Shown here: piece by piece, positions 542 to 8,058 of the stretch | Position numbering within the stretch: position 1 is the stretch's first letter | Layout: the number at the start of each line of letters is the position of its first letter | IMG/VR virus record: IMGVR_UViG_3300020473_002126 | Location: 1 to 60,846 of that record | Source: a virus | DNA length: 60,846 nt | Reading direction: 5' to 3' (one strand) | The notes under the pieces: generated by a model | Told to the model about the DNA's origin: nothing | Database searches by the model: none | Seen by the model: the letters and a program-made list of their open reading frames with translations, nothing else | Position numbers and translations under genes: made by a program

Positions 542-1069
542 TTGTTAAAGAAGATTACAAAACTATTTAAAAGAGCAAAAAACTTTATTGCTAATAAAGT
601 AGATCGGCGGATAGTAAAGTGGTATGCAGGTCTTGCTATTTGTATTTCAGGTTTAGAGATTGCGTACTTGAATGGCACTCTAAAAGAGATATATGAAAAT
701 GATCCGACAAAAATTAGCGTTGGAATTTTCTTAATTTTAATCTGGCAAACATTTAAAGCTGGATTTATTCTGTTTGAAAGAAATAGAACAGGTTTTAAGG
801 CTAATAAAGATGCGTTTAAAAAAGACATCGAGTCCGGATGGTTTTGGAGTGATTCTGTTCTATCACTTGGTATGGTGGGAACGGTGATTGGATTTATGTC
901 AATGCTAGCCGGTTTTATAACACTTGATATTGCAGATCCCGAGTCTGTTCAAGGAATAATCGCTCAACTAGGATCGGGAATGGCTACGGCATTAACAACA
1001 ACTCTAGTTGGGTTGATAGCGAGCATCTTGATAAAGGTTCAATTTTTTATGTTAGATAACATGGACTAA
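542..1069 (+). CDS. MotA/TolQ/ExbB-family proton-channel-like membrane protein
   Basis: A 175-residue protein with a basic N-terminus, hydrophobic segments near residues 28-46 and 58-75, and a C-terminal pair of helices at about 103-130 and 143-170. The third helix carries GMVGTVIGF and the fourth GSGMATALTTTLVGLIAS. Both are hallmarks of the MotA/TolQ/ExbB domain, in which these helices line the ion pathway of an inner-membrane pentamer. It is smaller than bacterial ExbB/TolQ (about 230-245). Translation must start at TTG 542 because no in-frame ATG occurs before the conserved core. It is followed after 1 nt by a protein with an ExbD-like N-terminal helix, the usual partner arrangement. Function in a phage is unknown; energised membrane or envelope manipulation is an inference. 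Confidence 0.75.
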   Translation: MLKKITKLFKRAKNFIANKVDRRIVKWYAGLAICISGLEIAYLNGTLKEIYENDPTKISVGIFLILIWQTFKAGFILFERNRTGFKANKDAFKKDIESGWFWSDSVLSLGMVGTVIGFMSMLAGFITLDIADPESVQGIIAQLGSGMATALTTTLVGLIASILIKVQFFMLDNMD

Positions 1070-3644: not shown

Positions 3645-4565
3645 ATGACAGTTAGACTAGGTTATGCTTGTATTAACATGAGCCTCCAAGAAAGGCGCCC
3701 TGGAAAGGTTACATGCAACAGAGGTATGATTAGGCGCACATTTTTAGCCAAGGGTGCAGAATACGCTTCACAGCTTGCATTGCTCAACTCTCTTGATCTT
3801 ATCAAGATTATTGCATGGAACAACGAGCAAGGGATAAAGGTGTTCAGGATGACATCATGCCTATTTCCATGGATGTCCGAGTATGAACTAGAAGATCTTC
3901 CTGATTATGAAGGCATCAAGGCAAATCTAGAATATGCAGGTAGAATTGCTCGAGAGAACAATCAGCGACTTTCTTTTCACCCTGGGCCGTTTAATATTCT
4001 ATCTTCCCCCAAGGAAAAGGTTGTCCAGTCTTCTTTGCTAGATCTGACCCGTCACGGTGAGATCATGGACCTGCTTGGTCAGCCGCGTAGCCACTGGGCC
4101 AAGATTAACATCCACCTGGGTGCTGCGTACGGTGATCGTGAAGGATCGATCGATCGATGGTGTAGAAACTTTGAGTTGCTTCCTGACTCTGTCAAGACTC
4201 GTCTCACACTAGAGAACGACGACCGTGGAAATCTCTACTCGACAAAGATGCTTTACGACGGTGTCTACAAGCGACTCGGTGTTCCCATTGTCTTTGACTC
4301 TCATCACTTCGAGTGCGGTCCGCAGGACACGCCGTACGACGAGGCAATTGGCATGGCTGTGGAAACGTGGCCTGATGGTATCACGCCACAGTGTCACCAC
4401 TCAAACTCCAAGCGCGACTACGAAGATCCAACAGTGGCCAAGTCTGCTCACAGCGCTTATTACTACAAACCCTTCGAAAGCTGTGGGCACACAGTCGATG
4501 TTGTACTAGAAGCGAAGGCGAAAGAACGTGCATTGTTCAAGTATATGAGAGACTTTTGTGCTTGA
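3645..4565 (+). CDS. uvsE: UV-damage endonuclease UvdE/UvsE
   Basis: A 306-residue protein, the normal length for bacterial UVDE. It is a TIM-barrel nuclease that nicks DNA 5' to UV photoproducts using a metal cluster. Family landmarks occur in order: LGYACIN at the N-terminus, FRMTSCLFPW (about 67), LSFHPGPFN (about 106), INIHLGAAYGDREG (about 150), TLENDD (about 188), IVFDSHHFECG (about 214) and CHHSNSKRDY (about 248). These contain the His, Glu and Asp ligands expected. AGGAGA precedes the ATG. The 3' half (about 4030-4460) is clearly richer in G and C at third positions than its neighbours, which suggests recombination from another source. It would repair phage DNA damaged by sunlight. 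Confidence 0.92.
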   Translation: MTVRLGYACINMSLQERRPGKVTCNRGMIRRTFLAKGAEYASQLALLNSLDLIKIIAWNNEQGIKVFRMTSCLFPWMSEYELEDLPDYEGIKANLEYAGRIARENNQRLSFHPGPFNILSSPKEKVVQSSLLDLTRHGEIMDLLGQPRSHWAKINIHLGAAYGDREGSIDRWCRNFELLPDSVKTRLTLENDDRGNLYSTKMLYDGVYKRLGVPIVFDSHHFECGPQDTPYDEAIGMAVETWPDGITPQCHHSNSKRDYEDPTVAKSAHSAYYYKPFESCGHTVDVVLEAKAKERALFKYMRDFCA

Positions 4566-5094: not shown

Positions 5095-5305
5095 TTTCCT
5101 GCTTTTACAAGGCAGTTTTATTGCCATAAAATTTACTATGGCTAGTACTATAAAAAAATCAACAATGACGAAGGAGCACAAAAGATATCTTGCGGCTTCT
5201 AAAAATAGTAGTACAAAAGTTAAGACTAATCATGAAGAAGTTAAAAAACTTAACGAAGAGATTAGTTATATAGACGAAGACATTAATAATTCAGAGGAGA
5301 ATAGT

Positions 5306-6349
5306 ATGTCACAAGATTTTGACGATTTTGATTTTGTGAGTCATTTTGATGAGAATGCCGAGGTGGGTAGCGATGAGTTACTACCAGAAAACGAAGCACC
5401 CAGTTCATTAAACTGCGCTTTTATCGGACTAGGTGGAGGAGGTGGAAAACTTGCTAAATCTTTTCTTGATCTAGGTTTTAACAAGACTATTTTAGTAAAC
5501 ACGACTGAAAAAGATCAACCTAGCGGTGTAGATCCAGATCATTTTTTGCTGATTCCAGGTGCTGACGGTGTTGGTAAAAATGTTGAATTAGGCGAAGGCG
5601 TGCTTTCTGAGAACTCTACACTTGTCGAAGATGCGCTCAGAACAAAAATAGGTAAGGTTGACTGGATTTTCGTATGCTCAGGTGGCGGAGGCGGAACAGG
5701 CAGTTCAGCAGGCGTCCTTCATGAATCTTTTGAGCGCCATTTAAAATCAGTCCAGGGTGAAGGCAGGGTTGTTTATATTATATCAACACCGACTGCTCAA
5801 GAACTTCTAAACCCTACAATCAAGCAGAATTCAAAACACCTGAGCGACGCTGTTAGTAGTCATCCACACATCGTCTTAGATAACGAGAAGCAATTAAAGT
5901 TACTAAGAGGAAAAGTAGGGATGCTCGACATGTATCCGGCTGCGAACAAAGCGTTTGCCAAGATGCTGTCCCAGGTTTTAAAGCTTTCTAGTGAGTCTTC
6001 AACTGTTCAGACTTTTGACTCAAAAGATCTTGAAGCATGTCTAAAATCACCTGGGCGAATCTTTGTAGGAACGTCTATCGTTAGAGACGCATCTCAAAGA
6101 GGGTTGGGTTCAATTATTTTTCAAAGTTGCCTAAAAGGCTCACCTTGCCAGTCCGTCAATGGAAAAGGATCTGCTGGTGCTTTGGTTTTAGTCGCACCTT
6201 CCAATATTTTAGATGACGCTGCTATTAGCAATCACCTAGAATCAGCGATCTCTTATGTGGGCGGCAGAGTAGACACACTATTTTCAGGTGTCTATGTAAA
6301 TGACAATGCGCCTGGACTAATTTCAATTATGATGGTTTGCGGTTTATAA
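5306..6349 (+). CDS. FtsZ/tubulin-family GTPase
   Basis: A 347-residue protein from ATG 5306, chosen because AGAGGAGA (5293-5300) stands five bases before it. The same frame is open back to ATG 5138, which lacks a ribosome binding site but would add 56 charged residues. An acidic N-terminal tail precedes a Rossmann GTPase core. The first nucleotide loop is GLGGGGGKLAKS (about 40) and the tubulin signature is GGGGGTGSS (about 126). The T7-loop equivalent FDSKDLEAC keeps both Asp residues of FtsZ's NxDFAD motif, so hydrolysis across a filament interface is plausible. The C-terminal activation domain is present (AGALVLVAPSN to the end). The glycine loop is nearer FtsZ than PhuZ. It may form filaments that position phage DNA or capsids, or disturb host division. 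Confidence 0.85.
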   Translation: MSQDFDDFDFVSHFDENAEVGSDELLPENEAPSSLNCAFIGLGGGGGKLAKSFLDLGFNKTILVNTTEKDQPSGVDPDHFLLIPGADGVGKNVELGEGVLSENSTLVEDALRTKIGKVDWIFVCSGGGGGTGSSAGVLHESFERHLKSVQGEGRVVYIISTPTAQELLNPTIKQNSKHLSDAVSSHPHIVLDNEKQLKLLRGKVGMLDMYPAANKAFAKMLSQVLKLSSESSTVQTFDSKDLEACLKSPGRIFVGTSIVRDASQRGLGSIIFQSCLKGSPCQSVNGKGSAGALVLVAPSNILDDAAISNHLESAISYVGGRVDTLFSGVYVNDNAPGLISIMMVCGL

Positions 6350-6366
6350 AAATAAAAATAGACTAT

Positions 6367-6399
6367 AAAAGCCCTGCCTTGTGCAGGGCTTTTTCTTTT
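6367..6399 (+). terminator. intrinsic terminator, probably bidirectional
   Basis: AGCCCTGC (6370-6377) and GCAGGGCT (6383-6390) form a perfect 8-bp GC-rich stem with loop CTTGT, followed by TTTTCTTTT. On the other strand the stem is followed by TTTTATAG and T-rich sequence. It lies between two converging genes and can stop transcription from both sides. Confidence 0.9.
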
Positions 6400-6409
6400 G
6401 CGTAGATAT

Positions 6410-6673
6410 TTATGTCATGTATGTCTTGGATAATTGATTTGCATCCTTTAGTTTCGACAAGATCTTTTTTTCTATTTGACATACCCTCATTCTTGTGATG
6501 TTAAAAATTTCGCCTACCTCTTGCAAAGTTTTCGGACCTTTTTCTGATTCTATCAATGCGCAGTTCAGCGATTCAGGCATGTCTAACCATAATCGACAGT
6601 CCTTGTTGTCACAAGATACTTGGCATTCTTGGTGTGCTTTAAAGCACGTGATGCCTTTTATTATTTCTTCCAT
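6410..6673 (-). CDS. small sigma-70 region 4-like helix-turn-helix protein
   Basis: An 87-residue protein on the reverse strand. I place the start at ATG 6673 because AAGGA lies ten bases before it; the frame is open to TTG 6736. The N-terminal half has several Cys (CFKAHQECQVSCDNKDC) that could bind a metal. The C-terminal half (about residues 45-78) reads GPKTLQEVGEIFNITRMRVC followed by QIEKKILSKLK, the pattern of sigma-70 region 4, which recognises the -35 element. It lacks region 2, so it is not a complete sigma factor. It more likely acts as a DNA-binding regulator or RNA-polymerase-associated protein. It is one of only two convincing reverse-strand genes here. Confidence 0.75.
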   Translation of the reverse strand: MEEIIKGITCFKAHQECQVSCDNKDCRLWLDMPESLNCALIESEKGPKTLQEVGEIFNITRMRVCQIEKKILSKLKDANQLSKTYMT

Positions 6674-6750
6674 TTGTGTAAAATCCTTAATGATGTGCCT
6701 ACAAGTATTAAAATGCATGAATTGGAACATGTACAAAATGGAGTACTAGC

Positions 6751-8058
6751 GTGAGTAAAACACAAAAAAGAAAAACATTTATAGTTGACACTAATGTGCT
6801 GCTTTATGACAAAACCTCTATACACTCATTTCCAGGAGCAAAAGTAGTACTGCCGCTGACAGTATTAGATGAACTAGATAGGTTTAAAGATAAACCCGGC
6901 CTATTGGGTGAATCAGCCAGATATGTCAATAGGTTCTTAGATGAAGTTCGAAAAAGCGGTTCACTAACCGAGGGTGTCTTTATTGAAGATATCGATCAGA
7001 TAATAAAGGTGGAATTCAATAATGTAGAATTACTACCTGCTGATTTAAATCATACTACAGGTGACAACAAGATACTGGGTGTAGCATTACAACTAGCTAG
7101 AAATGAAGATATCACGGTAATCACAAAAGATATTAACTTTAGAGTAAAGTGCGATGTTCTAAAAATACCGTCAGAAGATTATTACAAAGATCATATCAGT
7201 AATCTAGACAATATGGATGACCTCTACTCTGGTCAAGACGAAGTATCAGTTGGAAAAGATCAGATTGATGATTTCTTTGCAGATGAAAAAATTCCTGCAC
7301 CTGAAATAGAAGGGAGTGAGTATCATGAAAATCAATTTTTCGTTCTAAAATCAAATTCGTGCAAAGCATCCGCTCTAGCAAAATATCAAAAAGGAGATTT
7401 GGTAGCTGTAAAACCCACTATAAATGATATGGTTAAAGTGAAACCTAGAAATAAGGAGCAAAAATTTGCTTTAGAGTTGCTTACTAATGATAAAATACAG
7501 TTAGTAACTATTACAGGTATTGCCGGGTCTGGCAAGACATTCTTAACTCTCATGAGTGCTCTTTCTGGGATCTATAGCGAAAGATACAATAGAATTGTCA
7601 TAACAAGATCTATGCAGCCTGTAGGTAAAGAAATAGGCTTCTTGCCCGGGACACTTGATGAAAAAATGTCCCCGTGGATGTCTCCCATTGTTGATAATTT
7701 TAGATGCAACTTCAAAGATATCACATATTTTGAAATGATGTGCCAAAAAAGACAAATTGAGGTTGCTCCTTTGACTTATATGAGAGGTAGAACTTTTAAT
7801 GATGCTTTTATTATTGTTGATGAAGCACAAAATGCTACAATTCATGAATTGAAAACTATTATTACTAGAGTAGGGGACAATTCTAAGGTTGTCCTCTTAG
7901 GTGATGTAGAGCAGATTGATACCCCCTATATTGATAAGCTGTCAAATGGTCTTTCTATTGTGACTGAAAAGTTCAAAGAATCCGAAATAACCGGCCACAT
8001 ACGGCTAGAAAAGGGTGAGCGATCACCATTAGCTACATTAGCATCAAAAGTTCTCTGA
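6751..8058 (+). CDS. phoH: PhoH-like ATPase with N-terminal PIN domain
   Basis: A 435-residue protein starting at GTG 6751 with GGAG at 6740-6743. Residues 9-150 form a PIN nuclease domain: FIVDTNVLL with the first acidic residue, a conserved LDELDRFK, then DNKILGVAL and VITKDINFR. Residues 225-435 are the PhoH P-loop ATPase: Walker A GIAGSGKT at about 255, an arginine-rich ITRSMQPVGK, Walker B FIIVDEAQNA at about 352, and LLGDVEQID. The architecture equals bacterial PhoH2/YlaK proteins, in which the PIN domain cleaves RNA and the ATPase domain unwinds it. PhoH genes are frequent in marine phages. A role in RNA turnover during infection is inferred; a direct phosphate-starvation role is not shown by the sequence. 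Confidence 0.9.
   Translation: MSKTQKRKTFIVDTNVLLYDKTSIHSFPGAKVVLPLTVLDELDRFKDKPGLLGESARYVNRFLDEVRKSGSLTEGVFIEDIDQIIKVEFNNVELLPADLNHTTGDNKILGVALQLARNEDITVITKDINFRVKCDVLKIPSEDYYKDHISNLDNMDDLYSGQDEVSVGKDQIDDFFADEKIPAPEIEGSEYHENQFFVLKSNSCKASALAKYQKGDLVAVKPTINDMVKVKPRNKEQKFALELLTNDKIQLVTITGIAGSGKTFLTLMSALSGIYSERYNRIVITRSMQPVGKEIGFLPGTLDEKMSPWMSPIVDNFRCNFKDITYFEMMCQKRQIEVAPLTYMRGRTFNDAFIIVDEAQNATIHELKTIITRVGDNSKVVLLGDVEQIDTPYIDKLSNGLSIVTEKFKESEITGHIRLEKGERSPLATLASKVL

Follow-up and report, generated by a model that had tools for sequence, protein, structure and literature searches.

Two phage tubulins have been characterized in detail, PhuZ from nucleus-forming phages and TubZ from plasmid-like phages. 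These are also the two that reviews name as phage tubulins (PMC7950403), and surveys tie the tubulin of jumbo phages to the phiKZ type (PMC7824862, PMC9123017). AdsorpSeq viral population 18 (2020), a circular jumbo contig from sewage, is reported to encode a homologue of FtsZ while having no protein of the nuclear shell (PMC7452251). This may be a case related to the one described here; it differs in that its terminase lies near those of Ralstonia phages and proteobacterial jumbo phages, a comparison made from the published description only (PMC7452251).

We have analyzed a gene lying in a 60,846-nucleotide stretch of viral DNA (IMG/VR record IMGVR_UViG_3300020473_002126), the whole of which we call the window. 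Relatives of its product are encoded on at least 252 viral contigs, and the 118 family members that we compared keep the motifs of the nucleotide site, so the gene is not a chance open reading frame. A tblastn search of the INPHARED phages with the window protein gave no match at E up to 1. The FtsZ matches that do occur there appear to be bacterial FtsZ, in records that are host-like or fragmentary, and not members of this family. A further candidate, L071 (Clostridiaceae, 30% identity), proved to be a glycerate kinase picked up through a shared peptide and is no relative. Within the open-access literature, the family appears to be previously undescribed. The features of the locus are collected in the table.

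Features of the tubulin-like gene and its surroundings (window coordinates)
Feature	Position	Strand	Evidence or remark
Weaker terminator-like hairpin ahead of gene	5099..5115	+	Region fold z -2.5; best fold pairs otherwise
AAATTTA, one mismatch from ATATTTA	5129..5135	+	L096 and L102 have exact ATATTTA at the aligned site
Whole open frame, 403 aa, tubulin-superfamily protein	5138..6349	+	ORF listing; true start 5138, 5165 or 5306
Conserved part, 347 aa, tubulin/FtsZ fold	5306..6349	+	PDB, NCBIfam and Pfam matches; AlphaFold2; Foldseek
Acidic N-terminal arm, residues 1-33	5306..5404	+	Net acidity; pLDDT <50 at residues 1-5 and 8-21
DFDFV, conserved arm motif ([DN][FW][DG]F[V/I/A/L])	5324..5338	+	33-34 residues before T1
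T1 loop GLGGGGGK	5426..5449	+	118/118 members; aligned with FtsZ T1
T3 loop NTTEKDQP	5498..5521	+	Columns mostly invariant; NTTxKDQP in 104/118
GGGTGS signature (T4 loop)	5687..5704	+	Invariant in alignment; 118/118 members
T7 loop TFDSKD, both catalytic Asp	6011..6028	+	Both Asp (D238, D241) invariant across 41 sequences; aligned with FtsZ NxDxxD
Intrinsic terminator behind gene	6367..6393	+	-17.5 kcal/mol, z -4.9
Sigma-70 region-4-like ORF, right border of slot	6410..6736	-	PF04545 2.7e-10
PhoH-PIN protein bordering slot	6751..8058	+	Domain matches; order kept in relatives

Fold, nucleotide site and place in the superfamily

With the window protein alone as query, PDB chains of FtsZ are matched at 2e-8, and with a profile of the family at 1e-10. 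For CetZ the same profile gives 3e-9 and for TubZ 1e-6; no PhuZ chain is among the matches listed. The NCBI ftsZ model TIGR00065 is matched at E = 2.5e-8, with a score of 33.7 bits against a cut-off of 295.2, and the Pfam family PF00091 is matched only at 5e-4, under its cut-off. An AlphaFold2 model from 41 family members (mean pLDDT 90.8, pTM 0.88) has the two-domain fold formed, with the core helix H7 at residues 206-227; the pLDDT drops under 50 at residues 1-5 and 8-21 alone. A Foldseek search with this model found FtsZ (2.8e-20), CetZ (3.8e-20) and TubZ (1.6e-19, TM 0.73), with 16-18% identity to the best-matching FtsZ structures. Among viral models the best match is A0A6J5RW92 (1e-22, TM 0.78), annotated 'FtsZ' in BFVD and coming from an uncultured Caudovirales phage, and annotated PhuZ is found at 3e-11. 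At 452 aa and only 20% identity, A0A6J5RW92 belongs to a different phage FtsZ-like family, itself apparently undescribed. The earlier note had staked its proposal beforehand on membership of the superfamily and on a formed GTP pocket. The protein does fall within the superfamily and its predicted fold is formed; we infer the pocket from the positions of the motifs in the model. Thus sequence and model together confirm the assignment as a tubulin/FtsZ-superfamily GTPase with an FtsZ-like fold.

The motifs were compared in the 118 family members, and the invariance of individual residues was read from an alignment of 41. The GGGGG loop, the GGGTGS signature and the pair of T7 aspartates, on which the earlier note had based its expectation of catalytic ability, are all there: T1, GGGTGS and D..DL are found in every one of the 118. 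Aligned with FtsZ, the window protein shares the T6 Asn and the T7 Asp-x-x-Asp, and has Thr in place of the FtsZ Asn in T7. By these motifs the nucleotide site is intact and the catalytic residues are retained. The C-terminal end is short, running 8-15 residues beyond PGL in all 118 members, and in the alignment with FtsZ the family has neither the FtsZ C-terminal linker nor the conserved C-terminal peptide.

At the other end the protein carries the acidic N-terminal tail that had been noticed at the outset. The 40 residues ahead of T1 hold a median of ~10 net negative charges over the 118 members. Within this arm the strict form of the acidic-aromatic motif is present in 108 of the 118, at a spacing of 34 residues from T1 in 92 and of 33 in 16, and the listed members without it are close variants or have a truncated N-terminus. 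The motif keeps a fixed spacing although this part of the modeled monomer is disordered, which suggests to us that the arm docks to a partner or to a neighboring subunit.

In a mixture-model tree the family forms one clade (100/98) on a long stem, and both the FtsZ clade (97/97) and the PhuZ clade (100/100) exclude it. The unconstrained best tree joins the family with PhuZ weakly (74/28). In the AU test neither a joint clade with FtsZ (p = 0.30) nor one with CetZ (p = 0.42) is rejected, the latter with a single CetZ sequence in the tree, since the motif filter dropped the CetZ of pNRC200 (L254). TubZ was compared through fold and profile scores, the tree being built from the other families. 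The phylogeny proposed in the earlier note, run here with FtsZ, CetZ and PhuZ, thus sets the protein apart from PhuZ as that note expected, with the weaker PhuZ fold match in agreement, but also places it outside FtsZ. The view that it is closer to FtsZ holds for profile and fold, where FtsZ and CetZ score best and TubZ is close behind; on the tree FtsZ, CetZ and PhuZ all stay candidates for the nearest group. The family is on this phylogeny a clade of its own, and we reject identification as FtsZ itself, given the FtsZ clade that excludes it, the score far under the TIGR00065 cut-off and the missing C-terminal linker and peptide.

FtsZ, the cell-division GTPase of bacteria and archaea, is the best match in sequence and fold and shares T1, GGGTG, the T6 Asn and the T7 aspartates; the window family differs in its separate clade, the T7 Thr, an extended T3 (NTTEKDQ) and the acidic N-terminal arm, as well as in its C terminus. 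PhuZ of the phiKZ type is likewise a phage-encoded tubulin homologue of large genomes, for which a role in positioning cargo is plausible, whereas the window family has no C-terminal acidic tail and is a mobile single-gene cassette of a gp23-bearing T4-like virus. CetZ is archaeal and equals FtsZ in fold match; the window family is borne by phages. TubZ is similar in fold, but the window gene has neither an adjoining TubR nor iterons, and its product lacks the long C-terminal tail.

The gene, its genomic slots and the carrier virus

The gene had been taken to begin at 5306. An in-frame ATG does stand at this position, close before the conserved region, yet an ATG farther upstream, at 5138, belongs to the same open frame. 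The 56 codons between the two are kept as protein (MASTxKxSTMTxEH) in the nearest relative, L001, which is 81% identical; the extension is MASTIKKSTMTKEH in the window and MASTVKTSTMTREH in L001, and the differences are mostly synonymous. Therefore the true start possibly lies upstream of 5306, and the protein may be 403 aa in length. Between the window gene and that of L001 dN is 0.15 and dS is beyond calculation, presumably saturated. This combination is consistent with purifying selection on the gene.

Genes for the T4-type baseplate wedge and for tail fibers are present in the window, which is collinear with the 293 kb contig G001, itself encoding a gp23 capsid. Tubulin was found in 24 of 24 viral contigs searched, nearly always as one clear copy. 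A gp23 capsid is present in 19 of 25 relatives (18 of the 24 viral contigs and one MAG), and relatives also have genes for the portal (gp20) and the protease. Genomes of the clade are large, at 200-290 kb and up to 293 kb. The attribution to a T4-like phage in the earlier note is thus borne out: judged by gp23, gp20 and the T4-type baseplate, the carrier is a large T4-like phage, one of a family of uncultured marine phages. The closest capsids from cultured phages belong to Microcystis phage Mel-JY01 (36%, covering 95% of the query) and to Flavobacterium phage immuto (47%, covering 61%). In G001, two gp23-type capsid genes stand in tandem at 175700-180700, and G033 (L212) likewise has two adjacent capsid matches.

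Four contigs of the family had been binned into MAGs, three in Flavobacteriales bins and one in a Halobacteriovorax bin. Shine-Dalgarno sites precede 41-64% of clade genes, whereas the control, Flavobacterium phage immuto, has them at 2 of 18. This argues against a Bacteroidota host, in tension with the Flavobacteriales bins.

The distribution of the gene is patchy. It is missing in sixteen related contigs (58-257 kb) and in five named phages, and its presence, mapped on a capsid tree, requires seven changes or more and covers two deep clades. It occupies at least seven genomic slots, among them one between capsid and neck genes, one between the portal and protease genes, and the one beside the sigma-like and PhoH genes seen in the window. 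On a quick tree of the tubulins the slot switches at least 22 times. Three genomes (G029, G031 and G003) have flanks matching these, in the order c28, sigma-like gene and PhoH, with no tubulin between. Some 46 of 118 tubulin loci lie within a head-neck or portal-protease block, on the same strand. The capsid-neck slot itself is variable in the loci L146-L224, holding different ORFs of ~60-690 aa, and by this gene content it is a hotspot for cargo genes.

When six carriers were compared with five non-carriers (BLAST, families of at least 70 aa), tubulin was the sole family present in all of the former and none of the latter; four of these non-carriers are incomplete and five of the carriers are without their last few kb. 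No co-inherited partner gene emerged at this level, which remote or tiny partners would escape, and no neighbor gene is universal across the tubulin loci. In the window the gene has the strong terminator of its own that had been claimed for it, and with the weaker hairpin ahead of it a terminator stands on either side. In its genomic distribution the tubulin behaves as a mobile, patchy single-gene cassette. The sigma-70 region-4-like ORF bordering the slot is divergent from PhoH, is kept in most genomes of the clade, and is a possible late transcription factor.

Timing of expression

The T4 late promoter is TATAAATA. It is absent before the genes of this clade in the upstream regions examined. 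We scanned the 60 bp ahead of genes in 11 related genomes (L263-L369). The 7-mer with the greatest strand asymmetry there is ATATTTA, with 86 sense and 13 antisense occurrences in 1004 regions, and its asymmetry outranks that of the Shine-Dalgarno words. It stands before the genes for portal, c9, neck and sheath and before further large genes that are widely shared, and is thus a candidate clade-specific late promoter unlike that of T4. ATATTTA lies ahead of 22 of 71 tubulins and 15 of 27 neck genes, compared with 34 of 345 among the other spaced genes. The enrichment at tubulins has p = 1.4e-5, an optimistic value that ignores kinship and counts related loci. Several tubulin loci have no ATATTTA, and the one-mismatch AAATTTA in the window is only 9 bp ahead of the ATG at 5138, too close to be the promoter for that start. 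Since a motif found before virion genes preferentially precedes tubulin in the relatives, late expression together with the virion genes is likely, by this indirect support.

Proposed function and alternatives

We propose that the protein would bind and hydrolyze GTP and would be made late in infection by a large T4-like phage. It would polymerize on its own in a head-to-tail manner, the nucleotide face of one subunit meeting the T7 face of the next. The filament would arrange large cargo (capsids, virions or replicated DNA) as PhuZ does, without a phage nucleus, and the acidic-aromatic arm would be the likely docking element, either for the neighboring subunit or for a cargo always supplied by the clade phages or the host. 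Invariant residues lie on both head-to-tail faces in the 41 aligned sequences, namely T1, T3 and GGGTGS on one, and T7 with the region 267-281 on the other. Searches by sequence for homologues of ChmA, PhuZ and the phiKZ RNAP found none in 11 genomes including six carriers, the best ChmA match having E = 1.9. A self-sufficient filament for capsids or DNA is our best guess because of the likely late expression, the large genomes, the invariant interface, and the lack of a shell, a tubZRC locus and an FtsZ tail. For such a late-made, partner-free, PhuZ-like filament, in which we infer the polymerization, the cargo and the role of the arm, we judge the chances to be even. Of the three functions put forward in the earlier note, it agrees with the centering of DNA and the movement of capsids, and the third, poisoning of the host division ring, is disfavored by the likely late expression and by divergence from FtsZ. 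Since many close relatives lack the gene, handling of capsids would not be an essential or general function in the clade.

The principal competitor is a role that involves no filament, as a virion-associated or assembly GTPase, a lysis organizer or a phage-exclusion protein. The gene is accessory, is often found among head and neck genes, and has the promoter motif of virion genes, all of which would fit. Yet the slots also house unrelated accessory genes, so position alone is little informative, and both polymer faces are invariant, T7 aspartates included, which points to hydrolysis coupled to polymerization. We regard a non-filament role as unlikely, though it retains some weight. The FtsZ-like fold raises the possibility of a poison of host division, which would join or cap host FtsZ or titrate its partners, halting division and enlarging the cell. 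Such a protein could well be accessory, patchy and mobile, as genes of host takeover are, and as no phage partner was found its partner could be in the host. Phage inhibitors of host division usually act early, whereas the promoter motif here is of late type. Moreover copolymerization is made unlikely by the low identity to FtsZ structures, there is no C-terminal peptide to compete for FtsA or ZipA, and the whole catalytic site is retained, which would be superfluous in a simple inhibitor. We consider division poisoning improbable.

Fold comparison, where TubZ comes nearly as close as FtsZ, bears on a further reading in which a TubZ-like filament segregates phage DNA in a carrier or plasmid-like state. 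Partition of this kind is known for the TubZ of plasmids and phages (PMC7950403). The window, however, has no tubZRC locus: there is no TubR-like regulator adjoining the gene and no iteron array, its neighbors being small ORFs, the sigma region-4-like protein and PhoH. With no co-inherited partner, a late-type motif and a C-terminal tail that is not of TubZ length, we think DNA partition very improbable. Least credible of all, and hardly to be expected, is a diverged PhuZ spindle of a nucleus-forming phage. The weak union of the two families in the best unconstrained tree would suggest it, but PhuZ has its well-supported clade to itself and a weaker fold match than FtsZ, the window protein has no acidic tail of the PhuZ type, and the family belongs to gp23-type phages, in six carriers of which the sequence searches found no homologue of ChmA, PhuZ or the phiKZ RNAP.

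Returning to the self-assembling filament, a broader claim would be that the family is a third lineage of phage tubulins, apart from PhuZ and TubZ: mobile, partner-free, forming late a filament that organizes virions with no nucleus, and equipped with an N-terminal docking arm. We put this forward tentatively, and with some doubt. The occurrence in gp23-type phages of a conserved family with its catalytic site intact breaks the link between tubulin and the phiKZ type, and hints that phages without the known phage nucleus may have an internal 'skeleton'. If the protein does polymerize, phage cytoskeletons would be no by-product of the phage nucleus. In that case the purpose of a phage filament, a question raised in PMC7950403, could be tested in near relatives that naturally have or lack the gene.

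Other genes of the window deserve mention. The region from fibers to baseplate (16137-40409, + strand) contains a glycosyltransferase, a radical-SAM-like gene and many unmatched genes, and is largely missing in the relatives compared. An ExbB/TolQ/MotA-like ORF at 542-1069 (+ strand; PF01618, 2.2e-7) is odd for a phage. At 3645-4565 (+ strand) lies a UvdE-type UV endonuclease gene (PF03851, 1e-54), which is also present in several genomes of the clade.
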